Both the position numbers and the translations under genes were made by a program. A stretch of 64,000 nt of DNA from the NCBI RefSeq assembly GCF_004348985.1, contig NZ_SMKW01000027.1, forward strand, positions 1 to 64,000. Reading direction: 5' to 3'. The notes under the pieces are model-generated. The model was given only the letters and a program-made list of their open reading frames with translations, ran no database searches and was not told the DNA's origin. How positions within the stretch are numbered: the stretch's first letter is position 1; every line of letters begins with the position of its first letter. This DNA comes from Saccharopolyspora elongata (GTDB taxonomy: Bacteria; Actinomycetota; Actinomycetes; Mycobacteriales; Pseudonocardiaceae). Positions 1,950-38,970 of the stretch are shown piece by piece.

Positions 1950-2114
1950 TGTCCTCATCCCTTCGGCCGATCATCTGCGATCGACGAAAGTCTCAAACTT
2001 CAAGCGCGCTGCAGGTCAATGACACGATGGTGGTGTTCTCGATCACGTTTCACCCTGTTCGCCCGATGTTCGGCCGACTACGCTCCGCTTCCTGCACGGT
2101 TACCCGGAGGAATC

Positions 2115-2918: not shown

Positions 2919-2995
2919 CCAACCCGGCAGGATCCGGCGAACCGGCCGTGATCAAATCGATCAGAATACGGTAATAATCAGACAAAACTCCCTGG

Positions 2996-3008
2996 TACGG
3001 TGGCGGGC
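2996..3008 (+). promoter_or_regulatory. Probable leaderless -10 element
   Basis: TACGGT (2996-3001) lies seven bases before GTG 3009, so transcription would begin at or next to the start codon. No Shine-Dalgarno sequence is visible. The same arrangement occurs before the HAD gene at 19586. No good -35 is seen. Confidence 0.45.
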
Positions 3009-4130: not shown

Positions 4131-4164
4131 GGGGTGCCCCGAGCCGGTGAGACGCCCCTCGCGC
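4125..4164. terminator. Bidirectional hairpin between convergent genes
   Basis: Arms 4125-4136 and 4153-4164 form a 12-pair stem with two G/T wobbles. The left arm includes the acyltransferase stop codon and the right arm ends just before the peptidase stop, so one hairpin probably serves both genes. Confidence 0.6.
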
Positions 4165-4165
4165 G

Positions 4166-5533: not shown

Positions 5534-5681
5534 TCCGCCTCCTGCTGGGCCCGAGATCAGGCCGAACCTAGTTCCACCGGGCGGCAGCGGGAAGGCTGCG
5601 GCGTGTTCTCGCCGTTTCCCGCTGCGCCAGCTGGAATCCTCGCGGCAGGTAACGAGAACCGCCTCCCGGAAGGAAGAATCG

Positions 5682-6077
5682 ATGCCGAAGGAAGACCTGC
5701 CCGCGGACGTGCAGGAGCTGCTGTCGCGCCCGAACCCGGCGGTGATCGCCACCGTCAACACCGCGGGCGCGCCGGTCTCGGTGGCCACCTGGTACCTCTG
5801 GGACGGCGGAAAGGTGCTGGTCAACATGGACGCGGGCCGGGAGCGGCTGAAGCACCTCCGGGCCGATCCCCGGGTGTCGCTGACGGTGCTGGACGGCGAC
5901 AGCTGGTACCGGCACGTCAGCTTGCGCGGCCGGGTGATCGCCTTGGAGGACGACCCGGACCTGACCGACATCGACCGGCTGGCCCGGCACTACACCGGCG
6001 AGCCGTACCCGGTCCGCGACCGGCCGCGGATCAGCGGCTGGATCGAGGTGACCTCCTGGCACAGCTGGGGCGGCTGA
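5682..6077 (+). CDS. PPOX-class (split beta-barrel) F420/flavin-dependent oxidoreductase
   Basis: A 131-residue cytosolic protein with the pyridoxamine-phosphate-oxidase-like fold: PNPAVIATVNTAGAPVSVATWYLW, LVNMDAGRERLKHLRADPRVSLTV and a C-terminal RPRISGWIEV. This size and pattern fit actinobacterial PPOX-class F420-dependent reductases more than FMN pyridoxamine oxidase. ATG 5682 follows GGAAGGAAG. It diverges from the S37 peptidase gene across about 150 bases. Substrate unknown. Confidence 0.82.
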   Translation: MPKEDLPADVQELLSRPNPAVIATVNTAGAPVSVATWYLWDGGKVLVNMDAGRERLKHLRADPRVSLTVLDGDSWYRHVSLRGRVIALEDDPDLTDIDRLARHYTGEPYPVRDRPRISGWIEVTSWHSWGG

Positions 6078-6103
6078 CGGCCGGCAGAATCGCGCAGGCA
6101 GCG

Positions 6104-6225
6104 GTGAACGGCCCGTTCACCCCGAAAGACGGAGCAAACGGGCCGTTCACTCCACCACGCACCCACCGCCGACCCGAAACGAACGGACCGTTCACCTCGA
6201 AAGACGGCACCAACAGGCCGTTCAC
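6104..6225. repeat. Tandem GTGAACGG/CCGTTCAC palindrome cluster
   Basis: Four GTTCAC-ending palindromic units end at 6120, 6150, 6195 and 6225. They form two dimers, each made of palindrome, a GAAAGACGG spacer and palindrome, repeated with a 75-base period. The first unit, GTGAACGGCCCGTTCAC, is nearly a perfect dyad. A related hairpin is at 14825-14867. The cluster lies between convergent genes and could terminate both. Confidence 0.8.
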
Positions 6226-6237
6226 TCCTTCAGCCGA

Positions 6238-7188
6238 TCAGGCCGTGGCGGCGGCGTCCGCCTCCTGGGGCACCGGCTCCTCGTCGCGCTGCTTGGGCAC
6301 GTTCACGTCGCCGGACGGCACCTGTCCACTGTGGACCACCTCGGCGACGTAACCGTCCGCCTCCTCGCTCCCCGCGCCGGCCTCCGTCGCCGCCAACAGC
6401 GGCTCCGCCGTCGCCAGCACCTGCTGCGCAGCCCGGACCCGCTCCGCGACGTCCTGCCGCATCCGCAGCATCGACTCGGCGTAGTCGTCCGCCTCGCGGA
6501 TCAGCCGCTCGGCCTCGGCGGTCGCTTCGCGGACCCGCCGCTGCGCCTCCTCGCGGCTCTTCTGCTCGCGCTCGGCCTGGATGCGCATCGCCTCTTCGCG
6601 GCGCGCCGCCATCGACACCTCGAAGTCGTGCTCGACCTGGGTGCGCCGCTCCTCGGCCTCGGTGTCCAGCCGCCGGCGGCACTGCTCCGCCTCGCGCGCC
6701 ATCGCCTGGACCTCTTCGCGGGTGCGCGTCAGCATCTCGCCGCGCTGCTGCTCGGACTGGCGGCGCCACTCGTCGGCCTCGGCGACCAGCTTCTCGTAGC
6801 GTTCCCGGAGCTCGGCGGCGGCCTGCTCGGAGCGCGCCCACTCGTGCTCGGACGCGGCCTGCGCGGCGGCGACCACATCGTTCGCCTCGTCCTGCGCGAG
6901 CCGGACCATCCGGCGTAACCGGTCGGTCAGCGCGGCGGCGTCGATCGGCGTGCGCGCCTGCTCGTCGAGCTGCTCCTTGAGCGACTCGATCTCGGCTCGC
7001 GCCTGGTCCAGCTGCGCCGACAGGTCGCCGACCTGGCTGAGCGCCGAATCCCGGTCCTCCGTGATGAGCCTGATCTCGTTCTCGGTCTGCTGGATGTAGA
7101 ACTTCACCTGCGATCGGCGAAACCCGTACCACACTGTGTCGAAATCCGACTTCAGCGGCACTAGTTCGCGGTCTTCGTTGTGCCCCAC
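6238..7188 (-). CDS. Coiled-coil, DivIVA/cellulose-binding-like cytoskeletal protein
   Basis: 316 residues, almost all charged heptad sequence rich in E, R, Q and A from about residue 40 to 255, with a short unstructured acidic tail. The N-terminus (DFDTVWYGFRRSQVKFYI) resembles the membrane-targeting head of DivIVA-related actinobacterial proteins often annotated as cellulose-binding. The likely role is a polar or filament scaffold in tip growth. The GTG start follows GGGGTGAG. No catalytic motif is seen, and an exact family would need a profile search. Confidence 0.65.
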   Translation of the reverse strand: MGHNEDRELVPLKSDFDTVWYGFRRSQVKFYIQQTENEIRLITEDRDSALSQVGDLSAQLDQARAEIESLKEQLDEQARTPIDAAALTDRLRRMVRLAQDEANDVVAAAQAASEHEWARSEQAAAELRERYEKLVAEADEWRRQSEQQRGEMLTRTREEVQAMAREAEQCRRRLDTEAEERRTQVEHDFEVSMAARREEAMRIQAEREQKSREEAQRRVREATAEAERLIREADDYAESMLRMRQDVAERVRAAQQVLATAEPLLAATEAGAGSEEADGYVAEVVHSGQVPSGDVNVPKQRDEEPVPQEADAAATA

Positions 7189-7456
7189 GGTCTCACCCCG
7201 CTCGATTGATCAACTTTGCTGGGAGCGAGCCACGCCCCGACGCGGCAAGTCCGTTGTACACCTGGAGAACGTCCCCGCGATGTGCTCCGCCGGACTGAAA
7301 TCCGCCGGAGTGCACGCGCGGACGCGAGGTGCCACGGATCGCTGCGCCCATTGTCGCCCGCAACGGCGATCGAGATCAACTGCCCGGAATCCGGTGCAAT
7401 GCAACGGTCATCGGATGTTGACCATCCGGTCACCGGGGCGGAATTGCCTGCTGGAA

Positions 7457-8032
7457 TCAGGTTTTCGCGCCCGGACCGAGCACCCGGCGGAATATCGTCT
7501 CGATTTCATCTCGGCTCGGCACCGATTCCCGGACGATTCCTTGCAGCAGCAAACCGCAGAACAGAACGGACAATGCACGCCCGGTGGCCGGATCGGTGTA
7601 GGAGGCGAACAGCTCGGCCAGCGCGGTGTCCCATTCCTGGCTGACGCCGCGCAGCGCCGGCTTGTGCAGCGAGGCGATGTAGAGCTCGTGCTCGACGGCG
7701 GTCTGCGGCCGGGCCGGGCCGAGGTAGTGCAGCACCAGGTCGGTCAGCGCGACGGCGAGATCACCGCCGCACTCCAGCCGCTCGGCCCACTGCCGCAGGT
7801 GCTCGACGTCGTCCTCGGCGGCCTGTCGCAACGCGCTCGCCAGCAGGTCGTCGAGCGTCGCGAAGTAGTAGGTGGTCGACCCCAGCGGAACACCGGCCGC
7901 GGCCGCGACGGCACGGTGCGTGAGCTTCTCCACCCCGCGCTCGGCGACGACCGTGATCGCGGCGCGGGCGATGCGCTCGCGGCGGGCCGGGTCCTTGCGG
8001 CGGGCGGCGGGCGCGGGCTGGGTGGTCGACAT
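7457..8032 (-). CDS. TetR-family regulator, probable BetI-like repressor
   Basis: 191 residues. The N-terminal HTH is typical TetR: RRERIARAAITVVAERGVEKLTHRAVAAAAGVPLGSTTYYF. It is divergent from the aldehyde dehydrogenase-permease-GMC oxidase genes, the usual place of a local repressor, and a dyad TGTACA-GA-TGTACA lies between them. ATG 8032 is chosen as the start of conserved sequence; the only Shine-Dalgarno-like GGGAGG is somewhat distant (13 bases). The open frame extends further upstream but with no family similarity. The choline link is inferred from the neighbours. Confidence 0.78.
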   Translation of the reverse strand: MSTTQPAPAARRKDPARRERIARAAITVVAERGVEKLTHRAVAAAAGVPLGSTTYYFATLDDLLASALRQAAEDDVEHLRQWAERLECGGDLAVALTDLVLHYLGPARPQTAVEHELYIASLHKPALRGVSQEWDTALAELFASYTDPATGRALSVLFCGLLLQGIVRESVPSRDEIETIFRRVLGPGAKT

Positions 8033-8473
8033 TCGCTTCGGCGTTCCTCCCGTGAACTCCACAACGGTGTCCAGCGTGCCATGTTGACCACCCAGCGCGA
8101 TGCGGTCCAGGTCACCGGAACGGCGTTCCGCCTGTTCATCACGACTTTTTCGGCGATTCATGCCGGGGCCGCAGCCCCGATGATGTACAGATGTACAGGA
8201 CCGGTGTTAGGGTCTTCCGCGGCACTGCGCCGGGACACAAGCGTTAACCCGCCACCGAATGGACCGCCAGGAGGTGAATTCCGCGACTCGCGGGTCGATC
8301 GGTCCCCATTCGGCGAATAGCGCGCCGCCGCGCTTACCGGCGGCGCAATCGGCGAACGCGTTTTAGTGTGGCGGAGCGAATCGGATCGCGGCCATGTGCA
8401 CACCGGTACCAGAAGTGCGCAGCGGTGCGGTTCCGGCGCGAAAAGCACAATCGACATCACGGGGAAACGAGCC
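8033..8473. promoter_or_regulatory. Divergent control region of the choline/betaine-type locus
   Basis: The 441 bases hold no convincing gene. At 8184-8197 is the dyad TGTACAGATGTACA. Its first TGTACA could be a -35 element 18 bases from TAGGGT (8208-8213), so a bound repressor would block a rightward promoter. The transcript would then have a leader of about 250 bases with a GC-rich hairpin (8322-8330 with 8338-8346). An AGGAGG near 8271 has no credible ORF after it. Confidence 0.55.
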
Positions 8474-9967
8474 ATGTCGCACGCAGAGAATTCGACAGCC
8501 TCGCTGTTCATTGATGGCGAGTGGACGTCGGCCGCCGACGGCCGAACCCGCGAGATCCGCTGCCCCGCCGACGGCTCGCTGGTGGCCACGGTCGCCGAGG
8601 CCGGGCCGGCCGACGCCGAGCGGGCCATCGCCGCCGCGCGCCGCGCCTTCGACGACGGCGCCTGGGCGAACACCTCACCGTGGGAGCGCGGCGACTTGCT
8701 GCTGCGGGTAAGCGACATCCTGCAGCGGGACAAGGCGGAGTTCGCCCGCGCCGAATCGCTGGACACCGGCAAGCGGCTGGTCGAGAGCGAATTCGACATG
8801 GACGACATCACCGCGTGCTTCCGGTACTTCGGCAAGATCGCCGGCACCGACGCGGGCCGCCTCGTCGACACCGGATCGCCGGACGCGATCAGCCGCGTGC
8901 AGTACGAGCCGGTCGGCGTGTGCGGCATGATCACGCCCTGGAACTACCCGCTGCTGCAGGTGGCCTGGAAGGTCGCCCCGGCGATCGCGGCGGGCAACAC
9001 CTTCGTGCTCAAGCCCAGCGAGCTCACCCCCAGCACCGCGATCCTGCTGATGCGGGCGCTGACCGAGGCCGGGCTGCCCGCCGGGGTCGGCAACCTCGTG
9101 CTGGGCACCGGCGCCGAGGCCGGCTCGGTGCTGGCCGAGCACCCGGACGTCGACCTGGTGTCGTTCACCGGCGGCCTGCACACCGGCCGCAAGATCTCGG
9201 CGGCCGCGGCCGCGACGGTGAAGAAGGTGGCGCTGGAACTCGGCGGCAAGAACCCGAACGTCGTGTTCGCCGACGCCGACTTCGAGACCGTGGTGGACTA
9301 CGCGCTGACCGCGATCTTCCTGCACTCCGGGCAGGTCTGCTCCGCCGGGGCGCGGCTGATCGTGCAGGACGAGCTGCACGACGCGCTGGTGGACGAGATC
9401 GTCCGCCGCGCCGAGCGGATCCGCATCGGCGGGCCGTTCGACTCCGACGCCGAGACCGGGCCGCTGATCTCCGCCGCGCACCTGAAGAAGGTGGACGACT
9501 ACGTGGCCAAGTCGGTCTCCGAAGGCGCCGTGCTGCGCACCGGCGGCCGCCGCCCCGAGGGCGAGCGCTACGCGAACGGTCACTACTACCTGCCGACCGT
9601 GCTCGACGAGGTCAAGCAGGGCAGCTACGCGGTCAACGAGGAGTCCTTCGGACCGGTGCTGACCGTCGAGCGCTTCACCGACGAGGACGACGCGGTGCGC
9701 ATCGCCAACGACACCTACTACGGCCTGGCCGGCGCGGTGTTCACCGGCGATCCGGGCAAGGCCCAGCGGGTGGCCAACCGGCTGCGGCACGGCACCGTCT
9801 GGATCAACGACTTCCACCCCTACCTGCCGCAGGCCGAATGGGGCGGCTTCAAGCAGTCCGGCATCGGCCGCGAACTCGGCCGCGCCGGCCTCGGCGAGTA
9901 CCAGGAAGCAAAGCACGTCTACCAGAATCTGCGGCCCGGACCCCAGAACTGGTTCTCCGGAGAATAA
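8474..9967 (+). CDS. betB: Betaine-aldehyde-type aldehyde dehydrogenase
   Basis: 497 residues, standard ALDH superfamily length. Visible motifs are the NAD-binding PWNYPLLQVAWKVAPA, the catalytic-Glu motif LELGGKNPNV and the catalytic-Cys motif HSGQVCSAGARLIV. It oxidises an aldehyde, probably betaine aldehyde to glycine betaine, given the GMC oxidase, permease and TetR around it. ATG 8474 follows a weak GGGGAAACGAG. The stop is followed by 443 bases of structured non-coding DNA before the permease. Other amino-aldehyde substrates remain possible. Confidence 0.85.
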   Translation: MSHAENSTASLFIDGEWTSAADGRTREIRCPADGSLVATVAEAGPADAERAIAAARRAFDDGAWANTSPWERGDLLLRVSDILQRDKAEFARAESLDTGKRLVESEFDMDDITACFRYFGKIAGTDAGRLVDTGSPDAISRVQYEPVGVCGMITPWNYPLLQVAWKVAPAIAAGNTFVLKPSELTPSTAILLMRALTEAGLPAGVGNLVLGTGAEAGSVLAEHPDVDLVSFTGGLHTGRKISAAAAATVKKVALELGGKNPNVVFADADFETVVDYALTAIFLHSGQVCSAGARLIVQDELHDALVDEIVRRAERIRIGGPFDSDAETGPLISAAHLKKVDDYVAKSVSEGAVLRTGGRRPEGERYANGHYYLPTVLDEVKQGSYAVNEESFGPVLTVERFTDEDDAVRIANDTYYGLAGAVFTGDPGKAQRVANRLRHGTVWINDFHPYLPQAEWGGFKQSGIGRELGRAGLGEYQEAKHVYQNLRPGPQNWFSGE

Positions 9968-19558: not shown

Positions 19559-19578
19559 TACCGTCTAGTCGGTACGGT
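19559..19578 (+). promoter_or_regulatory. TetR-type operator and leaderless -10 for the HAD-APH-ACAD operon
   Basis: TACCG-TCTAGT-CGGTA (19559-19574) is a near-perfect dyad overlapping -10 TACGGT (19573-19578), seven bases before ATG 19586. A closely similar dyad, ACCGACCAGTCGGT, lies before the acyl-CoA ligase gene at 38945-38958, whose operon ends in a TetR gene. Confidence 0.65.
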
Positions 19579-19585
19579 CCTGGGC

Positions 19586-20269
19586 ATGGGTTCCAGTGAC
19601 GCGACCCCGGAGATCCGGGCGGCGATCTTCGACTACGGCGGCGTGCTGACCACGCCCGGCCGCACCGCCATCCGGACCTGGACCGAGCACGAGCGGATCC
19701 GCCCGGAGACCTTCTCCGCCGCGATCAAGGACTGGCTGTCCCGCAACGCCCCCGCGGGCACCCCGATCCACAAGCTGGAGACCGGCGAGATCACCGCCGA
19801 CGAGTTCGACCGCACCCTGGCGAAGCGGCTGCGCACCGTCGACGACGAACCGGTCGCACCCGACGGGCTGATGGGCCGGATGTTCGCGCGGATGCGCAGC
19901 GAGCCCGCCATGCTCGACCTGGTGCGCCGGCTGCGCGACTGCGGCGTGCGGACCGCGCTGCTGTCCAACAGCTGGGGCAACAACTACCCCTGGGAATTGC
20001 TCGACGGGCTCTTCGAGTGCACGGTGATCTCCGGCGAGGTTGGACTCCGCAAGCCCGATCCGCGCATCTACGAACTGGCCCTGGACCGGCTCGGCCTCAC
20101 CGCGGGCGAAGCGGTGTTCGTCGACGACGGCGCCCCGAACATCGAAGCCGCCGAGCGCCTCGGACTGCACGCGGTGCTGCACACCGACGTCGCCGCGACC
20201 CTCGCCCGGCTCACCGAGCTCGTCCCGGCCCTGCGCCGGAGCGTCCCGCAAGGCAAGGAGAGTTCATGA
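19586..20269 (+). CDS. HAD-superfamily hydrolase, ACAD10 N-domain-like
   Basis: 227 residues: subfamily IA HAD fold with nucleophile motif IFDYGGVLT (residue 15 Asp), TALLSNSWG (motif II), GLRKPDPRIYE (motif III Lys) and VFVDDGAPNIEAA (motif IV). The second Asp of DxD is Gly, as in ACAD10-like and epoxide-hydrolase-like HADs. It is the first gene of a seven-gene operon and overlaps the kinase gene by ATGA. By analogy with animal ACAD10 it may be a phosphatase in hydroxyacyl-CoA handling; the substrate is unproven. The start is probably leaderless. Confidence 0.87.
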   Translation: MGSSDATPEIRAAIFDYGGVLTTPGRTAIRTWTEHERIRPETFSAAIKDWLSRNAPAGTPIHKLETGEITADEFDRTLAKRLRTVDDEPVAPDGLMGRMFARMRSEPAMLDLVRRLRDCGVRTALLSNSWGNNYPWELLDGLFECTVISGEVGLRKPDPRIYELALDRLGLTAGEAVFVDDGAPNIEAAERLGLHAVLHTDVAATLARLTELVPALRRSVPQGKESS

Positions 20270-21306
20270 ACGCCCAACCGTCGCCCGGCGAGCTGCCCGG
20301 CCTCGACCTGGACCGGCTGCGCGCGCACCTCGACGCCGAGTTGCCCGGCCTGGTCGGCGGCCCGCTGACCGGCGAACTCGTCCAAGGCGGCCGGTCGAAC
20401 CTGACCTACCTCGTCGGCGACGGCGCGAACCGCTGGGTGGTGCGCCGTCCGCCGCTGGGCCACGTGCTGGCCACCGCGCACGACATGAGCCGCGAGTTCC
20501 GGGTGATGTCCGCGCTGGCGAGCACGCCCGTGCCGGTGCCCGAGACCCACCTGCTGTGCCAGGACGAGGACGTCATCGGGGCCCCGTTCTACGTGATGGA
20601 GTACGTGCCGGGCACCGTCTACCGCACCCCGAAGCTGACTGATCAGCTCGCCCCGCAGCAGCGCGTCGACCTGGCCTGGCAGCTGATGGACGTGCTCGCC
20701 GACCTGCACTCGATCGACCCGGGGTCCGTCGGGCTGGGCGAATTCGGCCGCCCCGAGGGATTCCTGGAACGGCAGGTGCGCCGCTGGAGCAAGCAGCTGG
20801 CCGCCTCGCACAGCCGCGACATCGACGGCATCGACGAGCTCGCCGCCCGGCTGGCCCGGACCGTCCCCGGCACGCCGCGCGCCGGCATCGTGCACGGCGA
20901 CTACCGGCTGGACAACGTGATCGTCGGCGACGACCAGCGCATCCGGGCCGTCCTGGACTGGGAGATGGCGACCGTCGGCGATCCGCTCACCGACCTCGGG
21001 TTGCTCGCCGTGTACTGGGAGGGCTTCAACGGCGTCGAGCGCAACCCCATCGCCAAGGGCGTCGGCCCCGAGTACGGCTTCCCCACGGCCCGGCAGCTGC
21101 TGGACCGCTACGCCGAACGCAGCGGCACCGATCTGTCCGAAATGGACTGGTACCTGGCGTTCGGGTTCTTCAAGATCGCCGTGATCCTGGAAGGGATCCA
21201 CTACCGCTTCATCCACAACCAGACCGTCGGCGAGGGCTTCGAGCACGTCGGCGCTCTGGTGGCACCGCTGGTCGCCCAGGGTCTTGCCACCCTCAAGGAG
21301 GAATGA
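20266..21306 (+). CDS. APH-family phosphotransferase, ACAD10/11 kinase-domain-like
   Basis: 346 residues with the aminoglycoside-phosphotransferase fold: [12 protein letters not shown] near residue 43 (glycine-rich loop), WVVRRPP (Lys/Arg strand), catalytic [11 protein letters not shown] near residue 207 and metal-binding [16 protein letters not shown] near 230. These C-lobe motifs are those of ACAD10/11 and LvaA-type hydroxyacyl-CoA kinases rather than drug kinases. It probably phosphorylates the hydroxyl of a 4-hydroxyacyl-CoA. Coupled on both sides: ATGA overlap with HAD and one base before the acyl-CoA dehydrogenase ATG. Confidence 0.87.
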
Positions 21307-21307
21307 G

Positions 21308-22519
21308 ATGGATTTCGGCTACGACGAACGCACCGAGGAGCTGCGCAAGCAGCTGCTGGACTTCATGGACTCCCACGTCTACCCCGCCGAACCGGTGTTC
21401 CTCGAACAGCTGGCCGCGGGCGACGACCCGTGGTCGGCGCACCCGCCGATCATGGAGGACCTCAAGGCCGAGGCCCGCAAGCGCGGCCTGTGGAACCTGT
21501 TCCTGCCCGGTGAGCACGGCGCCGGGCTGACCAACCTCCAGTACGCGCCGCTGGCCGAGATCATGGGCCGGGTCGGGCGGCTGGCCCCGGAGGCCACCAA
21601 CTGCGCCGCGCCGGACACCGGCAATATGGAGGTGCTGTCGCTGTTCGGCACCGAGCAGCAGAAGAAGCAGTGGCTGCAGCCGCTGCTGGACGGCGAGATC
21701 CGCTCCGCGTTCTGCATGACCGAACCCGACGTCGCCTCCTCCGACGCCACCAACATCGGCACCCGCATCGAGCGCGACGGCGACCACTACCTGATCAACG
21801 GCCGCAAGTGGTTCTCCTCCGGCGCGATGAGCCCGCGCTGCAAGATCCTGATCGTGATGGGCAAGACCGACCCGGACGCCGAGCGGCACCGCCAGCAGAG
21901 CCAGATCCTGGTGCCCAAGGACACGCCCGGCGTGCAGCTCATCCGCAGCATGAACGTGTTCGGCTACGACGACGCCGACCACGGCGGGCACGCCGAGATC
22001 GTGTTCGACAACGTCCGGGTGCCGGCGGAGAACATCATCGCCGGCGAGGGCGAGGGCTTCGCGATCGCCCAGGCCCGGCTCGGGCCGGGCCGCATCCACC
22101 ACTGCATGCGCGCCATCGGGATGGCCGAGCGGGCGCTGGAGCTGATGTGCCGCCGTGCCAACGAGCGCATCGCCTTCGGCAAGCCGCTGGCCGAGCAGGG
22201 CGTGGTGCAGCACTGGATCGCCGAGTCGCGGGTGAAGATCGAGCAGGCCCGGCTGCTGGTGCTCAAGACCGCGTGGCTGATGGACACCGTCGGCAACCAG
22301 GGCGCGCACACCGAGATCCAGGCGATCAAGGTCGGGGTGCCGCAGATGGTCACCTGGGTGATCGACCGCGCCATCCAGGCGCACGGCGGCGGTGGCGTCA
22401 GCCAGGAGTTCCCGCTGGCCAACCTGTACGCGCACGCCCGCACCCTGCACATCGTCGACGGTCCCGACGAGGTGCACCGCCGCTCGCTGGCCCGCCGGGA
22501 GCTGAAGAAGTACCGCTGA
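21308..22519 (+). CDS. Acyl-CoA dehydrogenase, ACAD10/11-like
   Basis: 403 residues of FAD-dependent ACAD fold. [16 protein letters not shown] is the flavin-side motif, [19 protein letters not shown] follows, and the C-terminus has [19 protein letters not shown], the distinctive ACAD10/11 ending. In the model from mammalian ACAD11 and bacterial levulinate catabolism, such an enzyme acts on the phosphorylated hydroxyacyl-CoA to give an enoyl-CoA. Its Shine-Dalgarno AAGGAGG lies inside the kinase gene end. A long hairpin follows. Confidence 0.88.
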
Positions 22520-22523
22520 TCGC

Positions 22524-22567
22524 TCGTGAGTGGTAGTGGTCGCTGGAACGGCCACTACCACTCACGA
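22524..22567. repeat. CGTGAGTG/CACTCACG hairpin (within operon)
   Basis: Perfect 16-base arms (22524-22539, 22552-22567) with a 12-base loop. One of four hairpins in the window whose arms start or end with CGTGAGTG/CACTCACG or nearly so. It lies between two co-directional genes of one operon and could reduce read-through or stabilise the upstream mRNA. Confidence 0.75.
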
Positions 22568-22600: not shown

Positions 22601-23356
22601 ATGGCAGACAGTCGTGTCGCGATCGTCACCGGTGCCGCGCGCGGAATCGGTGCGGCCACTGCGAAGCGCCTGGCCGAGGACGGCTTCGCCGTGGCGGTCA
22701 TCGACCTCGACGAGAAGCAGTGCGCCGACACGGTGTCGGCCATCGAGTCCGGCGGCGGCAAAGCGCTGGCGGTCGGCTGCGACGTCAGCGACGCCGGGCA
22801 GGTCCAGGCCGCGGTCGACCGCATCGCCGCCGAGCTCGGCGGGCCGACGGTGCTGGTCAACAACGCCGGCGTCATCCGGGACAACATGCTGTTCAAGATG
22901 TCCGAGGACGACTGGGACACGGTGATGAACGTGCACCTGCGCGGCGCGTTCCTGATGAGCCGCGCCGTGCAGAAGCACATGGTCGAGGCCAAGTGGGGCC
23001 GGATCGTGAACCTCTCCAGCACCTCCGCGCTGGGCAACCGCGGCCAGGCCAACTACTCCACCGCCAAGGCCGGGCTGCAGGGCCTGACCAAGACGCTGGC
23101 CATCGAGCTCGGCAAGTTCGGCGTCACCGCCAACGCCATCGCGCCCGGCTTCATCGCCACCGACATGACCAAGGCGACCGCCGAGCGGGTCGGGATGGAC
23201 TTCGAGGACTTCACCAAGGCCGCCGCGAGCCAGATCCCGGTGGCCCGCGTCGGCCAGCCGGAGGACATCGCGAACACGGTGTCGTTCTTCGCCGACGAGC
23301 GCTCCGGGTTCGTCTCCGGCCAGGTGATCTACGTGGCCGGCGGACCGAAGGCGTGA
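22601..23356 (+). CDS. Short-chain dehydrogenase/reductase (FabG-like)
   Basis: 251 residues. Cofactor motif TGAARGIG (residues 10-17), NNAGV, catalytic Ser in NLSSTSALG, YSTAK with catalytic Tyr and Lys, and a C-terminal GQVIYVAGGPKA. It probably oxidises or reduces a hydroxyacyl/ketoacyl-CoA in the same pathway, like LvaD in levulinate use. GAGGAG precedes ATG 22601. Its stop overlaps the next start (TGATG). Confidence 0.87.
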   Translation: MADSRVAIVTGAARGIGAATAKRLAEDGFAVAVIDLDEKQCADTVSAIESGGGKALAVGCDVSDAGQVQAAVDRIAAELGGPTVLVNNAGVIRDNMLFKMSEDDWDTVMNVHLRGAFLMSRAVQKHMVEAKWGRIVNLSSTSALGNRGQANYSTAKAGLQGLTKTLAIELGKFGVTANAIAPGFIATDMTKATAERVGMDFEDFTKAAASQIPVARVGQPEDIANTVSFFADERSGFVSGQVIYVAGGPKA

Positions 23357-24540
23357 TGACCGTGGACGCCGACGAACTCCGCGGCAAGGTAGGGGAATTC
23401 CTCGCCGCGAACGATCCCGCGCAGATGGACCGGCTGGAGTTCCTGCGGGCCCGCTTCGACGCCGGGCTGGCGTGGGTGCACTTCCCCGCCGGCCTCGGCG
23501 GCCTGGGTGCCGCGCGGGAGCTGCAGCCGGTCGTGGACGCCGCCTTCGCCGAGGCCGGCGCGCCGGACAACAAGCCGCAGCTGAACGTCATCGGGCTGGG
23601 CATGGCAGCCCCGACGATCCTGCGCTTCGGCAACGACGAGCAGCGCCGCCGCTACCTCCGTCCACTGTGGACCGGAGAAGAGATCTGGTGCCAGCTGTTC
23701 AGCGAGCCGGGCGCCGGCTCGGATCTCGCCGCGCTGTCCACCCGGGCCGTGCGCGACGGTGACGAGTGGGTGGTGGACGGGCAGAAGGTCTGGACGTCGC
23801 TGGCGCACCAGGCCCGCTGGGCGATCCTGGTCGCCCGCTCCGACCCGGACCAGCCCAAGCACAAGGGCCTGAGCTACTTCATCTGCGACATGACCGCGCC
23901 GGGCGTGGAAGTCCGCCCGCTGCGGCAGATCACCGGCGAAGCCGAGTTCAACGAGGTGTTCCTGACCGGGGTGCGGATCCCGGACTCCCAGCGCCTCGGC
24001 GAGGTCGGCCAGGGCTGGCAGGTCGCGCTGGGCACCCTGATGAACGAGCGGGTCGCCATCGGCGGGCGCGCGCCCGCGCGGGAAGGCGGCATGATCGGCC
24101 TCGCCGCGCAGGCCTGGCGCGAGCACCCCGAGAAGCGGACGCACGGCCTGCACGACCGGCTGCTGCGGCTGTGGGTCGAGACCGAGGCGACGCGGCTGAC
24201 CAGCATCCGGCTGCGCCAGCAGCTCGCCATCGGCGAACCCGGCCCCGAGGGCTCCGCGGTCAAGGTCGCCTACTCCGAGCAGAACCAGGCGATCACCGGG
24301 TTCGAGCTGGAGTTCCTCGGCGAACCGGGCCTGGCCTACGACGACTGGACGTTCCGCCAGCCCGAGTACACCGACTTCGTCAAGCGCGGCCCCGGTTTCC
24401 GATACCTGCGGGCGAAGGGCAACTCGATCGAGGGCGGCACCACCGAAATCCTGCGCAACATCATCGCCGAGCGGGTGCTGGGCCTGCCGCCGGAGATCCG
24501 CACCGACAAGGACCGGCCGTGGAAGGAGCTGCCGCGATGA
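23356..24540 (+). CDS. Acyl-CoA dehydrogenase, subunit of a likely heteromeric pair (large)
   Basis: 394 residues. FSEPGAGSDLA and the C-terminal EGGTTEILRNIIAERVLGLPPEIR are hallmark ACAD segments. It is joined by overlapping start and stop codons to a second, different ACAD gene, the arrangement of actinobacterial alpha2-beta2 ACADs such as the FadE pairs of steroid side-chain degradation. It would carry out the alpha,beta-dehydrogenation step of a beta-oxidation round. Confidence 0.86.
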   Translation: MTVDADELRGKVGEFLAANDPAQMDRLEFLRARFDAGLAWVHFPAGLGGLGAARELQPVVDAAFAEAGAPDNKPQLNVIGLGMAAPTILRFGNDEQRRRYLRPLWTGEEIWCQLFSEPGAGSDLAALSTRAVRDGDEWVVDGQKVWTSLAHQARWAILVARSDPDQPKHKGLSYFICDMTAPGVEVRPLRQITGEAEFNEVFLTGVRIPDSQRLGEVGQGWQVALGTLMNERVAIGGRAPAREGGMIGLAAQAWREHPEKRTHGLHDRLLRLWVETEATRLTSIRLRQQLAIGEPGPEGSAVKVAYSEQNQAITGFELEFLGEPGLAYDDWTFRQPEYTDFVKRGPGFRYLRAKGNSIEGGTTEILRNIIAERVLGLPPEIRTDKDRPWKELPR

Positions 24541-25655
24541 GCGCCCCGGACCTGCTCTACAGCGAAGTCGAAGAGGACCTGCGCTCGAACGTCCGCCGGC
24601 TGCTGCGGGACCGGTGCGACTGGACCGCGGTGCTGGCCCGCTGCGAGACCGACGAGCCCTACGACCTCGCGCTGTGGCGGACCCTCGCCGGCGAGCTCGG
24701 GCTCGCCGCGCTGCTGGTGCCCGAGGACCTCGGCGGCGCCGGGGCCAGTGCCCGGGAGCTGTCGGTGGTGGCCGAGGAGATCGGCCGGTCCGTCGCGCCG
24801 GTGCCGTTCCTGAGCAACCTGCTGACCACCGCCACCCTGGTGGCCTGTGCGGACGAGCCGCGGGTGCGGGAGATCCTGCCGCAGTTCATCGACGGCTCGC
24901 AGCTCGGCACCGTCGCCGTCGGGCTGACCACCGTGCCCTACGGCGCGTTCCCGCAGTCGGTGAAGGCCGACGGCGCCGCGCTGACCGGCTCGGTGTCGGC
25001 GGTGGTGGACCTGGAGGTCGCCGACTACGTGGTCGTGCCCGCCGCCGACGGGGACGGCGCGGCGCTGTACCTGGTGGACACCTCGGTGTCCGGGGTGTCG
25101 CGGACGCCCACGACGTCGCTGGACCTCACCCGGCGGTTCGGCACGCTCGCCCTGGACGGGGCGGTCGGCGAGCGGATCGCGGCCGGCGCCGACGCCGAGC
25201 GGATCCTCCGGCAGGCGCTGGTGACCGCGGCCGGGCTGCTGGGCGCCGAGCAGGTCGGGCTGGCCCAGCAATGCCTGGACGCCACCGTGGAGTACGCCAA
25301 GACCCGCTACCAGTTCGGCCGCCAGATCGGCTCGTTCCAGGCGGTCAAGCACCGGCTGGCCGACCTGTGGGCGGCGGTGAGCTCGGGGCGGGCCGTGGCC
25401 CGCAACGCCGCCGACGCCCTGGCGCGCGGCGACGAGTCGGCGGAACTCGAGGTCGCCATCGCCCAGGCCTACTGCTCCGAGCTGGTCGTGCAGGCCGCGG
25501 AAGAGCACCTGCAGCTGCACGGCGGCATCGGGATGACCTGGGAGCACTCGGCGCACCTCTACCTGGGCCGGGCCAAGAGCTCCCAGCTCACCTTCGGCAT
25601 CGCCGAGGCGCACCGGCAGCGCATCGGCGAACTCGCCGACCTGCCCACGCCGTAG
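24537..25655 (+). CDS. Acyl-CoA dehydrogenase, partner subunit (small)
   Basis: 372 residues. The N-terminal half is ACAD-like but lacks the strong flavin motif of its neighbour; the C-terminal half has KTRYQFGRQIGSFQAVKHRLAD and LHGGIGMTWEHSAHLYLGRA. The start overlaps the preceding stop (ATGA). Such partners usually complete the FAD and substrate site in a heterotetramer. It is followed by a hairpin and MaoC. Confidence 0.86.
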   Translation: MSAPDLLYSEVEEDLRSNVRRLLRDRCDWTAVLARCETDEPYDLALWRTLAGELGLAALLVPEDLGGAGASARELSVVAEEIGRSVAPVPFLSNLLTTATLVACADEPRVREILPQFIDGSQLGTVAVGLTTVPYGAFPQSVKADGAALTGSVSAVVDLEVADYVVVPAADGDGAALYLVDTSVSGVSRTPTTSLDLTRRFGTLALDGAVGERIAAGADAERILRQALVTAAGLLGAEQVGLAQQCLDATVEYAKTRYQFGRQIGSFQAVKHRLADLWAAVSSGRAVARNAADALARGDESAELEVAIAQAYCSELVVQAAEEHLQLHGGIGMTWEHSAHLYLGRAKSSQLTFGIAEAHRQRIGELADLPTP

Positions 25656-25670
25656 GCCTGCGCGGATCGG

Positions 25671-25720
25671 GGCTCGTGAGTGCGAAAGCCGGTTCTTACC
25701 GGCATGACCGCTCACGAGCC
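25671..25720. repeat. GGCTCGTGAG/CTCACGAGCC hairpin
   Basis: Outer 10-base arms 25671-25680 and 25711-25720 with an inner GCCGG/CCGGC stem (25688-25692, 25699-25703). Related to the CGTGAGTG family. It lies between the last ACAD gene and MaoC. Confidence 0.7.
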
Positions 25721-25759: not shown

Positions 25760-26212
25760 TTGCGGGTATTCAGCAGCAAGGAAGAGATCGTCGCCGCCAA
25801 GGGCGAGAAGCTCGGCACCAGCGAATGGCTCACCGTCACCCAGGAACAGGTGAACCTGTTCGCCGATGCCACCCTGGACCACCAGTGGATCCACATCGAC
25901 GTCGAGCGCGCCGAGCAGGGTCCGTTCGGCGGCCCGATCGCGCACGGGTTCCTCACCCTGAGCCTGCTGCCGAAGCTGAACTCCCAGACCTACAAGTTCG
26001 AGGGCGCCAAGATGGGGATCAACTACGGCCTGAACAAGGTCCGCTTCCCCAGCCCGGTCCTAGTCGGCTCGCGGGTCCGCTCCACCACGGAGCTCGCGGA
26101 CGTGACCGAGGTGGCCGGCGGCCTCCAGCTGACGGTCAAGTCCACCATCGAGATCGAGGGCGGCGCGAAACCGGCCTGCGTGGCGGAGGGCCTCACCCGG
26201 GTGGTCTTCTGA
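25760..26212 (+). CDS. MaoC-family (R)-specific enoyl-CoA hydratase
   Basis: 150 residues, hot-dog fold. The hydratase 2 motif with catalytic Asp and His is ADATLDHQWIHIDVERA, followed by GPIAHGFLTLSLLP. It hydrates trans-2-enoyl-CoA to (R)-3-hydroxyacyl-CoA. The start is the TTG at 25760, seven bases after a perfect AAGGAGG; no ATG is placed correctly. It is the last gene of the operon and is followed by a terminator hairpin. Confidence 0.88.
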   Translation: MRVFSSKEEIVAAKGEKLGTSEWLTVTQEQVNLFADATLDHQWIHIDVERAEQGPFGGPIAHGFLTLSLLPKLNSQTYKFEGAKMGINYGLNKVRFPSPVLVGSRVRSTTELADVTEVAGGLQLTVKSTIEIEGGAKPACVAEGLTRVVF

Positions 26213-26415: not shown

Positions 26416-26668
26416 TAGATTTCCGCTTCGTGAACGTTGGCGCGCGCTTTGCACCTGGCTGCCGCACATGCGGCTGCCGGGCCCCTGCGCGCCGCGTGCG
26501 GGGCCGCCGAGTGCGGTACCACATCGGATGTGAGCCTGGGCAGGTCAACGGCAGGCGATGGCAGCACTGAGCTGATGCTCGACCTCGCGAGCTCATCGTG
26601 CTCGCGAGGGTGTTCTGCCACTCATACGCACCTGACCGCGGGCACCGTTGTGCCCGCGAGGAGACATC
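26416..26668 (+). promoter_or_regulatory. Probable trpBA promoter and structured leader
   Basis: TAGATT (26416-26421) lies eight bases before GTG 26430, which opens a 46-codon frame ending at 26570 with several Cys codons and one Trp codon near its end. Two hairpins follow: 26583-26591 with 26601-26609, and CGCGGGCAC 26637-26645 with GTGCCCGCG 26650-26658, the latter abutting the trpB Shine-Dalgarno AGGAG. Leader-peptide or ribosome-access control is possible but unproven. Confidence 0.4.
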
Positions 26669-27913
26669 ATGATGTGCCGCCGGTTCTTCTTCCCTGCCCA
26701 AAACACCGATAACGACGCCTATTTCGGCGCTTTTGGTGGATCATTCGTCCCGGAAGCGCTGTTCGCGACCATCGACGACCTCGCCGACGAGTACGCGGCG
26801 GCAAAGGCCGACCCTTCGTTCGTCGCGGAGTTCGATCGCCTGATGGCCCGCTACGTCGGCCGCCCGAGCCCGTTGACCGAGGTCACCCGGTTCGCCGAGC
26901 AGGCGGGCGGCGCCCGCATCTTCCTCAAGCGCGAAGACCTGAACCACACGGGCTCCCACAAGATCAACAACGTGCTGGGGCAGGTGCTGCTGGCCAAGCG
27001 GATGGGCAAGTCCCGCGTGATCGCCGATACCGGCGCAGGTCAGCACGGCGTGGCCACTGCCACTGCTTGCGCGTTGCTCGGCCTGGAATGCACCGTCTAC
27101 ATGGGTGAGGTCGATACCCGGCGACAGGCGCTGAACGTGGCCCGCATGAGGGTTCTCGGCGCCGGCGTGGTGCCGGTGACGTCCGGCAGCCGGACGCTCA
27201 AGGACGCGATCAACGAGGCGTTTCGCGACTGGGTGTCGACTGTCCGAAGTACCCACTACGCGTTCGGTACGGCAGCCGGGCCACATCCCTTCCCCACCTT
27301 GGTGCGCGACTTCCAACGGGTGATCGGTGTCGAAGCGCGCAGCCAGATCCTGGAACACGCCGGCCGGCTACCGGACGCGGTCGCGGCCTGCGTCGGCGGC
27401 GGTTCCAACGCCATCGGTCTTTTCCACGCCTTCCTGCCGGACGAGCACGTCGGGCTCTACGGCTTCGAAGCCGCCGGCGAAGGGCTAGGCGGCACGCGCC
27501 ACGCAGCGACGATCGGCGCGGGATCGGCCGGCGTCCTGCACGGTTCGCGCTCGTACGTCCTGCAAGACGAGCAGGGGCAGACCCGGGGAACCCACTCGAT
27601 CGCCGCCGGCCTGGACTATCCCGGTGTGGGAGCCGAACACTCCTATTTGCACGCCACCGGCCGCGCCCACTACCTGCCCGTAACCGACGCCGAGGCACTG
27701 GAAGCGTTGCTGCTGCTGTCTCGAACCGAAGGGATCATCCCCGCGCTCGAATCCAGCCACGCCTTGGCGGGCGCGTTGCGGCTTGGCCGGGAACTGGGCC
27801 CCGAAGCCGTCATACTGGTCGGCCTGTCCGGACGCGGCGACAAGGACATGGGCACGGTCGCCCGCGAAGCGGGGTTCCTCGACGACCCGACCGCTGCGGA
27901 GGTGGCCCGATGA
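26669..27913 (+). CDS. trpB: Tryptophan synthase beta chain, variant active site
   Basis: 414 residues. PLP lysine in HTGSHKINN, cofactor loop in GGGSNAIG and C-terminal [11 protein letters not shown] are intact. In the motif AETGAGQHG the catalytic Glu (Glu109 of the Salmonella enzyme) is Asp here: ADTGAGQHG, read from GAT. This residue activates indole, so activity or nucleophile choice may differ. Starts at ATG 26669 or 26672 after GAGGAG. Overlaps trpA by ATGA. No trpE, D or C is nearby, so it is probably a second, specialised copy. Confidence 0.9.
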
Positions 27914-28752
27914 CCGGCGGGATCGAGCAGCTCGACAACACCTTCACCCGCATCGCGCAACAGGATCGCGCCGCGCTCATCGGCTTCCTCCCGGCAGGCT
28001 TTCCAAGCGCCGGAGAGGATGTGCAGGTGCTGACGGCGATGATCGACGGCGGCTGCGACATCATCGAGGTCGGAATCCCGTACAGCGACCCCATGCTGGA
28101 CGGTCCGGTCAACCAGACCGCCTACGACCTCGCGCTGCGTGGTGGCGTCACCGCGGAGGCGGTCCTGAAAGCCGTCAGCGCGATCACTTCCCGTGCGGCG
28201 GCGCCGGTATTGGTCATGACGTACTGGAATTGCGTTGATCGCTATGGCGTCGAGGAGTTCGCGGCCGATCTCGCCGCGGCCGGCGGTGCGGGCTGCATCC
28301 TCCTGGACCTGCCCGTGCAGGAGTCGGCATCCTGGCGTCGAGCGGCCGAACGGCACCAACTCGCAACCGTTTTCGTGGCGGCACCGAGCACACGCGACGA
28401 TCGTCTGCGCACGATCACGGCGGCGGGAACGGGCTTCGTCTACGCCGCATCCACCATGGGCGTTACCGGCGCACGCGAATCTGTCAGTGCTGATGCGGAG
28501 AACCTGGTGCGCCGTACGCGCGAAACCACAGCGCTGCCGGTGTGCGTAGGCCTGGGTGTGGCTACCGGTGCCCAAGCTGCGCAGGTCGCCTGCTACGCCG
28601 ATGGCGTCATCGTCGGGTCCGCATTCGTCCGGCAGCTGCTGGATGCGCCCGACTTCCCCACCGGTCTCGCGCGCATCCGGCGGCTGACAGCGGAGTTGGC
28701 ACGAGGTGTGCGCACCCGCCATTCCGGTGTCGACACCGAGTCGCGGCCGTAA
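27910..28752 (+). CDS. trpA: Tryptophan synthase alpha chain
   Basis: 280 residues, TIM barrel that cleaves indole-3-glycerol phosphate to indole and channels it to TrpB. The catalytic Glu and Asp are both present in [19 protein letters not shown]. The phosphate-binding end of the barrel reads [27 protein letters not shown] (split by helix 7). Translationally coupled to trpB. Codon use in the pair is a little less GC-extreme than in neighbouring operons, which may indicate transfer. Confidence 0.92.
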
Positions 28753-38927: not shown

Positions 38928-38944
38928 GCCACCTCCACGTTGAG

Positions 38945-38970
38945 ACCGACCAGTCGGTACGTCCAGTCAA
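38945..38970 (-). promoter_or_regulatory. Operator ACCGACCAGTCGGT and -35 of the acyl-CoA ligase operon
   Basis: A 14-base dyad (38945-38958). TTGACT on the minus strand (38965-38970) is a good -35; the -10 is not clear. The dyad resembles TACCGTCTAGTCGGTA at 19559-19574 (shared ACCG-N-C-N-AGTCGGTA pattern). Confidence 0.65.

Follow-up and report, generated by a model that had tools for sequence, protein, structure and literature searches.

In animals, ACAD10 readies 4-hydroxy fatty acids for breakdown. The locus described here raises the question whether the three parts of this fusion protein, a HAD-fold domain, an APH-family kinase and an acyl-CoA dehydrogenase (ACAD) domain, are found as neighbouring genes in an actinomycete and, if so, which reactions such genes would catalyze. 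For ACAD10 and ACAD11 and for bacterial orthologs of LvaA/LvaC, the chemistry, phosphorylation at C4 and elimination, has been shown in vitro (PMC12440821, PMC11342911). The locus lies in what is called here the window, which is the whole stretch of 64,000 nucleotides analysed (Saccharopolyspora elongata, contig NZ_SMKW01000027.1 of GCF_004348985.1, positions 1 to 64,000, forward strand). Our preferred reading, to which we give a probability of roughly 0.7, is that the operon would encode a route for 4-hydroxyacyl-CoAs, with phosphorylation at C4, elimination and beta-oxidation, in which a protein of phosphatase fold either holds the kinase back or removes its product.

The operon

Seven genes follow one another on the same strand (Table 1). 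The stop codon of the HAD gene and the start codon of the kinase gene share four bases (ATGA, 20266–20269), and a single base separates the kinase stop (21306) from the ACAD start (21308). The motifs FDYGGVLT (HAD), HGDYRLDN (kinase) and DGPDEVH (ACAD) are all in frame, and Pfam matches at the locus are to Hydrolase/HAD, APH, Acyl-CoA_dh N/M/1, adh_short and MaoC_dehydratas. A first-pass annotation, made from the sequence alone, had described HAD, kinase and ACAD genes that overlap or abut in ACAD10 order and had counted an SDR, a probable heteromeric ACAD pair and a MaoC hydratase to the same operon; the coordinates agree with both statements, the additional genes all lying downstream. It should be noted, however, that there are three separate reading frames rather than the one polypeptide of ACAD10. 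The suggestion that the operon may be a full route was too strong for the window, because none of the seven genes encodes an acyl-CoA ligase (LvaE type), a lactonase or a thiolase.

Table 1. Features of the putative 4-hydroxyacyl-CoA operon in the window
Feature	Description	Coordinates	Strand
Palindrome	perfect palindrome TACCGTCTAGTCGGTA, candidate operator	19559..19574	.
HAD	HAD-fold protein, 227 aa, ACAD10-HAD-like; motif I DxG, not DxD; motifs II–IV kept	19586..20269	+
Kinase	APH-family kinase, 346 aa; probably phosphorylates 4-hydroxyacyl-CoA (type of LvaA and the ACAD10-11 kinases)	20266..21306	+
ACAD	ACAD10/11-LvaC-type ACAD-fold enzyme, 403 aa; flavoenzyme that probably eliminates phosphate from 4-phosphoacyl-CoA	21308..22519	+
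SDR	SDR oxidoreductase, FabG-like, 251 aa	22601..23356	+
ACAD pair, first gene	acyl-CoA dehydrogenase, probably one subunit of a heteromeric pair; ATG 23356 assumed as start codon	23356..24540	+
ACAD pair, second gene	acyl-CoA dehydrogenase, partner subunit of probable heteromeric pair	24537..25655	+
MaoC	MaoC-type enoyl-CoA hydratase, 150 aa; Rv0130 is the best solved relative	25760..26212	+

The acyl-CoA dehydrogenase and the kinase

The best PDB match of the ACAD is mouse ACAD11 (8v3u, E 3e-145), followed by human ACAD11 (2wbi) and 4hr3, and the first general ACAD appears with an E of only 4e-49. PMC12440821 describes roles and mutants of R626, R631, H634, R637, H597 and D753 (mouse ACAD11 numbering). 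The window protein itself has the phosphate site R626, H634 and R637 and the catalytic Asp D753, which are R257, H265, R268 and D384 in its own numbering. All six residues are kept in 39/39 ACADs of other kinase-bearing loci, which were picked for having these genes and include two paralogue pairs of the window genome (L044, L045), the window protein serving as uncounted reference row. At loci without a HAD, the phosphate site and D753 were present in 24 of 24 ACADs and H597 in 23. R626, H634, H597 and D753 are missing in all four control ACADs of the window genome, two of which, as aligned, have an Arg at the position of R637. An ordinary FadE was ruled out on these ACAD11-type residues, most of which the controls lack, and by sequence the window ACAD is of the ACAD10/11/LvaC type.

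The kinase finds 9o56, 3dxp and ACAD11 as its best solved relatives (E 4e-66 to 8e-53), with 9fsg (E 3e-12) and viomycin kinase (E 9e-6) further away; to the ACAD11 kinase it is only distantly alike. The core residues D220 and N225 and R176 (for CoA) are kept in all 39 other loci. Membership of the APH Pfam family, a score of 43 bits with the APH(3') model and the naming of the near relatives 9o56 and 9fsg after aminoglycoside phosphotransferase could be taken to mean that the gene encodes an antibiotic phosphotransferase adjoining an ordinary fatty-acid operon. However, 43 bits is the best score with any NCBIfam aminoglycoside or macrolide phosphotransferase model, the cut-off for APH(3') being 205, and the PDB ranks and residues favour ACAD11 and LvaA; on these grounds the drug-kinase identity was discarded as hardly credible. 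In sequence the kinase groups with ACAD11-like kinases and not with known drug kinases, and it is probably a 4-hydroxyacyl-CoA kinase of the LvaA / ACAD10-11 type. The first-pass annotation had called for a profile comparison with ACAD10/11 and LvaA/LvaC, and PDB ranks and residues bear out the homology of both proteins. Among the findings that it had said would speak against it were drug kinases or ordinary FadE proteins as closest homologs and an unconserved operon; what was found are ACAD11-type relatives and an operon that is conserved.

Conservation of the gene order in actinobacteria

A genome scan with the HAD, covering at least 569 relatives, left 80 loci that were kept as HAD loci. 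Because most HADs of the query alignment adjoin a kinase, the scan may favour kinase-linked loci. In 31 of the 80, all from other actinomycetes, HAD, kinase and ACAD genes stand in ACAD10 order, and the full seven-gene order recurs in four (L054, L056, L057, L058), so that the three-gene arrangement is not due to chance; the operon conservation expected from the sequence alone is thus real. Five more of the 80 have HAD-kinase and four kinase-HAD, and neither a kinase nor an ACAD11-type gene was present in the stretch examined at 35, some of which end at contig ends. In a phylum-wide sample of 29 HAD loci, 16 had a same-strand kinase in the 1.5-kb flank, all in the order kinase-HAD, and 12 had no kinase within 1.5 kb. 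The order therefore varies between lineages. Conversely, a HAD match was absent at five Streptomyces-like kinase-ACAD pairs and at two further pairs in the window genome. No HAD-kinase fusion was found in the three loci with long open frames whose reading frames were compared (L015, L021, L023), none being in frame.

The loci without a kinase in both samples (35/80 and 12/29), and the Streptosporangiales, in which some HADs adjoin other genes, indicate that the HAD is not tied to this pathway alone. It could even be a general protein of beta-oxidation clusters, for example one that dephosphorylates some other acyl or CoA metabolite, beside the kinase only incidentally; in several Streptomyces (L068, L073) it lies behind thiolase and SDR genes without a kinase match. 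We consider this improbable, since two opposite orders occur beside one kinase type in different actinobacterial lineages, in 21 of the 31 HAD-kinase-ACAD loci the HAD and kinase genes are inferred to overlap or to lie no more than 2 bases apart, and the HAD is fused in ACAD10. Among the open-access papers listed, titles and abstract openings yielded no report of a bacterial HAD beside this kinase, and the available parts of PMC11342911 and PMC12440821 do not mention one.

The HAD protein

The HAD keeps the nucleophile Asp and lacks the second Asp of the DxD motif, which reads DxG. The same is true of all 37 kinase-linked HAD loci, which also keep motif II Ser/Thr, motif III Lys and the DD of motif IV. 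Across 115 HAD rows the second position is Gly in 113 and Ala in one, and in one it is not covered; DxG is a trait of the subfamily, kinase-linked or not. Of three other HADs of the window genome looked at, L041 and L042 have DxD and the more distant L040 has DYG; a nearer partial paralogue (L039) reads DCA. The predicted fold (pLDDT 92.4) is nearest to the N-terminal phosphatase domain of soluble epoxide hydrolase and to YihX from Escherichia coli, YihX sharing the DxG. Identity to the top structural matches is about 23–26%, however, the genomic context is another one, and the score of 98.8 with TIGR02247 is under the cut-off of 125.4. The HAD of ACAD10, in an approximate sequence, aligns to the HAD profile with 32.6% identity over 221 aa and 116 bits (YihX 91); D48 and D463 of that sequence sit where the paper puts them.

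The ACAD10 HAD likewise has the nucleophile Asp but no DxD; it lowers kinase activity and has negligible phosphatase activity on 4-phosphohydroxyhexanoyl-CoA (PMC11342911). A dead enzyme was nevertheless not deduced from DxG, which occurs irrespective of kinase linkage and is no proof of inactivity because YihX, whose motif I is DLG, is an active phosphatase (PMC4251788).

Histidine phosphatases beside the kinase in other bacteria

On plasmids of Proteobacteria, Deinococcus and Streptomyces, a histidine phosphatase unrelated to the HAD is encoded next to nine comparable kinases. Fourteen plasmid regions were taken by their ACAD match, selected from two 60-row listings drawn from 118 records. 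The first 12 had a phosphotransferase gene in nine and a phosphatase gene in three, the phosphatase of L182 being a tyrosine phosphatase from a divergent operon and those of L172 and L178 histidine phosphatases. The Deinococcus deserti region, picked since D. gobiensis had a histidine phosphatase, has one too; the Cytobacillus region has the kinase and no phosphatase. Eight of 27 histidine phosphatase records together with L172, L178 and L191 gave a set of 11 proteins. These phosphatases keep RHG, but all 11, as aligned, have Ser in place of the second catalytic His; nine of them stand beside a kinase, their genes touching the phosphotransferase gene. The phosphatase gene does not touch it in Haematobacter (L187), and in the unannotated record of C. 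metallidurans (L189) there is no adjoining kinase and no APH match. By coordinates alone, phosphatase and ACAD are at most 3 kb apart in seven records among the matches listed, and the distance is about 14 kb in those Sulfitobacter records that have both listed. In an actinobacterial sample of 11 genomes, no histidine phosphatase was adjacent to HAD-less ACAD genes, the nearest PF00300 match in Streptomyces-like genomes being at least 25 kb away.

Together these sequences suggest that in bacteria the kinase is often paired with a worn-down phosphatase-like partner. The HAD may still be a working phosphatase, hydrolysing 4-phosphoacyl-CoA or a wrongly phosphorylated acyl-CoA to the free CoA ester and so serving proofreading or the relief of a dead-end intermediate, not kinase regulation. 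The motifs kept in all linked HADs, the predicted fold, the activity of YihX despite its DLG and the equivalent place taken by the histidine phosphatase are consistent with this, and the authors of PMC6692424 suggest that the P. citronellolis protein may dephosphorylate 4-phosphovaleryl-CoA. The negligible activity of the ACAD10 HAD and the Ser in all aligned histidine phosphatases speak against it, and we regard it as conceivable, though rather to be doubted than assumed. Only tentatively can we put forward a regulatory role, in which many 4-hydroxyacyl-CoA kinases would be under a governor derived from a worn-down phosphatase. Two unrelated folds would then have been recruited beside the kinase, the DxG HAD in actinobacteria (fused in ACAD10) and the RHG/Ser histidine phosphatase in Proteobacteria, Deinococcus and some Streptomyces; both would bind 4-phosphoacyl-CoA, turn the kinase down and prevent CoA trapping, and the HAD of ACAD10 would descend from a bacterial subunit instead of having been added in animals.

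Proposed pathway

In the 4-hydroxyacyl-CoA route that we prefer, the kinase would use ATP to phosphorylate a 4-hydroxyacyl-CoA at its C4 hydroxyl. In the ACAD11-type flavoenzyme, the Asp would remove the C2 proton of the 4-phosphoacyl-CoA while two Arg and the His hold the phosphate, which, with transient flavin redox, would be expelled to give the 2-enoyl-CoA. The genes, their residues and the conserved linkage are observed; we infer these two core reactions from characterised relatives, and the substrate and the roles of the other proteins are our proposals. MaoC would hydrate the 2-enoyl-CoA. The SDR would oxidise the 3-hydroxyacyl-CoA or, like LvaD, reduce a 4-oxo precursor; a conventional dehydrogenation step on that acyl chain would fall to the heteromeric pair. 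The HAD, as free-standing counterpart of that in ACAD10, would bind the phospho-intermediate and restrain the kinase or slowly clear its product.

The operon resembles each known system in part. With ACAD10 it has in common the gene order, the HAD nucleophile without DxD and the active-site residues of kinase and ACAD, but its genes are separate and include the SDR, the ACAD pair and MaoC; the ACAD10 protein is itself cut between kinase and ACAD (PMC11342911). ACAD11 (kinase-ACAD fusion; 8v3u, 8v3v, 2wbi) has the nearest solved ACAD domain, with the published phosphate-binding residues kept, but no HAD. As in the Pseudomonas lva operon (LvaA, LvaB, LvaC, LvaD, LvaE), kinase and LvaC-type ACAD genes are separate with an SDR alongside, whereas an LvaE-type ligase is missing, the ACAD pair and MaoC are extra, and the HAD contrasts with the 12-kDa LvaB in P. 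putida and the histidine phosphatase in P. citronellolis (PMC6692424).

The three parts of ACAD10 thus exist in cultured actinomycetes as separate proteins, in ACAD10 order, and HAD and kinase can therefore be combined freely and each gene deleted by itself. That a phosphatase-like neighbour recurs can be tested as a rule for the pathway and for the annotation of genes now called 'phosphotransferase family' or 'HAD family phosphatase'.

The ACAD pair and lactone-derived substrates

For the two proteins of the pair (23356–25655), the best PDB matches come from the same solved complexes (6wy8/6wy9 and 4x28), one protein matching one partner chain and the second the other. Their scores with the NCBIfam models for IpdE2 and pimC/pimD stay below cut-off. 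The two proteins probably form a heteromeric pair, as had been proposed from the sequence alone. The solved complexes are known for steroid side chains. This resemblance would fit an operon for the breakdown of one specific lactone or bulky cyclic acid, in which case a lactonase of the phosphotriesterase type, with its gene outside the operon, would open the lactone to the 4-hydroxy acid. A phosphotriesterase-family gene does follow the kinase-ACAD genes in Tsukamurella (L048, L082) and Nocardioides phosphati (L085); in Tsukamurella tyrosinosolvens (L048) a thiolase and an annotated ligase also surround the same genes, and its phosphotriesterase-family protein best matches 4if2 and the 2vc5 group, which are lactonases. 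However, the Saccharopolyspora loci L054–L057 have no match to the phosphotriesterase-family gene. The sequences pointing to lactone-derived substrates are those of relatives, not that of the window locus, at which we hold such a specialization to be unlikely.

The upstream palindrome

Position 19559, from which the first-pass annotation had counted the feature, is the first base of the palindrome in Table 1, not the HAD start (19586). With up to two mismatches allowed, TACCGTCTAGTCGGTA matches at two sites, which count once per strand, versus 0.22 matches expected. In six of seven loci examined (L054–L058, L063), TACCGNCTAGTCGGTA or a near variant lies 5' of the HAD gene; at the seventh, L059, no such palindrome was found. 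The palindrome is probably a repressor operator of the operon, by its look perhaps of the TetR type. The extended form ACATACCGN4GTCGGTA has a single mismatch-free occurrence in the genome assembly.

The ACAD and the Kinase

The first three operon genes encode a HAD, an APH-family kinase and an acyl-CoA dehydrogenase (ACAD), counterparts of the fused domains of animal ACAD10. The first-pass annotation had this order right: the HAD and kinase genes overlap by four bases (ATGA), one base separates the kinase and ACAD genes, and an SDR gene, two ACAD genes and a MaoC gene follow, all identities agreeing with family scans. Among the matches listed in a species-genome scan, the closest named relative is Saccharopolyspora spinosa (HAD 82% identical, best segment).

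In the PDB the ACAD is closest to mouse ACAD11 (8v3u, E 3e-145), human ACAD11 (2wbi) and then 4hr3, and ordinary ACADs follow only after a gap (E 4e-49). Mouse ACAD11 requires R626, H634, R637 and D753 for 4-phosphoacyl-CoA processing (PMC12440821); R257, H265, R268 and D384 of the window's ACAD align with these. The six residues checked (R626, R631, H634, R637, H597 and D753) are invariant in 39/39 ACADs of other loci also carrying a kinase, a set that includes two paralogue pairs of the own genome. In four control ACADs (two others of the own genome and the operon's second and third), R626, H634, H597 and D753 are absent throughout; the R637 position is, as aligned, Arg in two, and three keep R631, a residue common to ACADs in general. 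A further 24 loci that lack a HAD show five of the six residues invariant and H597 in 23. Two further kinase-ACAD pairs of the own genome (L134 on contig C52, L135 on C137) have all ACAD11-type residues and no HAD; an acyl-CoA ligase-like gene lies beside one of them. In Rhodococcus opacus PD630 (L181), one of two adjoining genes is annotated 'Acyl-CoA dehydrogenase family member 11'; the other, annotated 'member 10', is by length and match a kinase only.

The closest solved relatives of the kinase are 9o56, 3dxp and ACAD11 (E 4e-66 to 8e-53), followed by 9fsg (3e-12) and viomycin kinase (9e-6). By record name, 9o56 is an 'aminoglycoside phosphotransferase' and 9fsg 'aminoglycoside phosphotransferase-like'; 3dxp is named 'putative acyl-CoA dehydrogenase', yet the match is to the kinase. 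Catalytic D220 and N225 and CoA-contacting R176 are kept in 39/39 kinases and in 25/25 of a further comparison. R86, also named in PMC12440821, falls by count on no Arg of the printed chain and was therefore left out. Against an approximate ACAD10 sequence, the kinase is 41% identical over 231 residues and the HAD 32.6% over 221, values to be read as a pointer only. What the analysis establishes directly is the genes, their order, their residues and their conservation; phosphorylation and elimination would proceed as in the characterised relatives, and the substrate and the action of the HAD are guesses.

Table. Coordinates of the operon genes and of other features mentioned in the text
Feature	Sequence	Position	Strand
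HAD	window	19586-20269	+
APH-family kinase	window	20266-21306	+
Acyl-CoA dehydrogenase (ACAD)	window	21308-22519	+
Intergenic hairpin	window	22525-22566	
Intergenic hairpin	window	25672-25719	
trpB- and trpA-like genes	window	26648-28752	
Imperfect palindrome copy	window	38944-38959	
Kinase-ACAD pair	L134 (C52, own genome)	5351-9451	
Kinase-ACAD pair	L135 (C137, own genome)	6410-8679	
'Member 11' and 'member 10' genes	L181 (R. opacus PD630)	6001-8285	
Histidine phosphatase cluster	L188 (Sulfitobacter pontiacus plasmid)	1714-8692	

The HAD as a Recurrent Free-Standing Partner

What is new is that the ACAD10-like HAD recurs as a free-standing partner. From at least 569 matches in a species-genome collection 80 loci were kept, found with a HAD alignment drawn mostly from HADs beside a kinase, which may favor such loci. 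HAD, kinase and ACAD11-type ACAD follow each other on one strand in 31; five have HAD-kinase with no ACAD in range, three kinase-HAD, one kinase-HAD plus a divergent ACAD, five a divergent ACAD without kinase, and 35 neither, some being truncated by contig ends. In 21 of the 31, the kinase is inferred to overlap the HAD gene or to start at most 2 bases from its stop. The complete seven-gene order is kept in S. spinosa (L054) and in three other loci (L056, L057, L058), and six genes in L055.

Independently, 198 genomes of the phylum, the own genome included, were sampled; 42, the own genome among them, carry the HAD (E 1e-15 or better). Of 29 loci outside the own genome, examined with flanks reaching 1.5 kb at most, 16 have a same-strand kinase, always in the order kinase-HAD, one has it on the opposite strand and 12 have none; larger stretches show ACAD-kinase-HAD in four loci (L141, L143, L144, L145). 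The two orders fall largely in separate parts of the HAD tree. That the same partner occurs in two gene orders argues for a working link between HAD and kinase. Against such a link, HAD matches are missing from five Streptomyces-like kinase-ACAD pairs, among others, and some Streptosporangiales HADs have other neighbors. ACAD11-type ACADs (E 1e-110 or better) occur in 73/198 genomes, and the HAD is thus an optional companion.

In Thermobifida, a Nocardiopsis and Frankiales (L089, L090, L122, L128, L132) the HAD gene and an ACAD11-type ACAD gene lie head to head, with no kinase match nearby. A small gene (MRVYLPCTL... or alike, ~150-190 aa), function unassigned, lies 3' of Streptosporangiales-type HADs (L097, L105, L121, L122).

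Two Phosphatase Folds beside One Kind of Kinase

Also new is the incomplete active site of the free-standing HAD. Motif I reads D-Y-G, with the nucleophile Asp present and the second Asp of DxD replaced by Gly (DxG). The ACAD10 HAD likewise has the first Asp only, shows negligible phosphatase activity and restrains the kinase, whose activity is higher in D48A (PMC11342911). DxG is found in 37/37 HAD loci checked with a kinase beside, motifs II, III and IV being kept, and of 115 HAD rows, 113 have Gly at the second position, one has Ala and one does not cover it. The predicted structure (mean pLDDT 92.4) is closest to soluble epoxide hydrolase (5mwa, through its phosphatase domain) and YihX. 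DxG alone does not decide activity, since YihX reads FDLGNV and is an active phosphatase (PMC4251788).

A parallel version with a histidine phosphatase beside the kinase is likewise new. In P. citronellolis such a gene sits between the LvaA (kinase) and LvaC (ACAD) homologues, and LvaB, the 12-kDa LvaA-binding protein of P. putida, is absent (PMC6692424). Among plasmid records, a histidine phosphatase gene touches a phosphotransferase gene in Azoarcus, Deinococcus gobiensis, Deinococcus deserti, Caballeronia, Ideonella, Pseudoalteromonas, Streptomyces NBC_01136, Sulfitobacter and Burkholderia multivorans; in Haematobacter and C. metallidurans it touches none. The first 12 ACAD-centered regions, hand-picked among the matches listed from 118 records, have a phosphotransferase gene in nine and a phosphatase gene only in three. 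The arrangement is not universal; the Cytobacillus plasmid ACAD region has no phosphatase gene. Sulfitobacter pontiacus (L188) has a cluster of this type with the other phosphatase: kinase and histidine phosphatase lie in a row with thiolase, two SDRs and an ACAD pair.

All 11 aligned histidine phosphatases keep RHG and have Ser (SGG) at the position of the second catalytic His. His is found there in 6/6 usable histidine phosphatases of the own genome (eight regions fetched, two unusable). The two not touching a kinase (Haematobacter, C. metallidurans) also have Ser, which is therefore a subfamily trait. In a quick tree, kinases beside a HAD and beside a histidine phosphatase lie on different branches. 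Two unrelated phosphatase folds thus adjoin the same kind of kinase, and both retain the nucleophile but have a substitution at one other catalytic residue; this is the result of most interest. Among the open-access papers listed, titles and abstract openings yielded none describing this as a pattern; PMC6692424 has the single P. citronellolis case.

Remaining Genes, the Lactone Question and the Upstream Palindrome

The operon's second ACAD and its third match different partner chains of one complex, in 6wy8/6wy9 as in 4x28, so that the heteromeric pair proposed earlier is likely. MaoC is closest to Rv0130. In Tsukamurella tyrosinosolvens the same genes occur with a thiolase, two SDRs, a quinone-oxidoreductase-family gene, a phosphotriesterase-family gene and an acyl-CoA ligase. 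The phosphotriesterase is closest to 4if2 and the 2vc5 group, which are lactonases. This gene set supports the lactone idea in relatives, and the window's operon may degrade lactones too. The core of the first-pass annotation, a split counterpart of ACAD10, is well supported; the window by itself does not amount to a full lactone route.

A perfect palindrome, TACCGTCTAGTCGGTA, starts at position 19559, where that annotation also began. It is kept 5' of the HAD in 6/7 loci examined; its extended form occurs once in the genome assembly. We take it as a candidate repressor operator. The window holds a second, imperfect copy with two mismatches. Two intergenic hairpins, which by eye share their outer arms (CTCGTGAGTG...CACTCACGAG type), divide the operon into HAD-kinase-ACAD, SDR-ACAD-ACAD and MaoC, and are perhaps a repeat family or attenuators. 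Just 3' of the operon lie, from a look at the sequence, trpB- and trpA-like genes.
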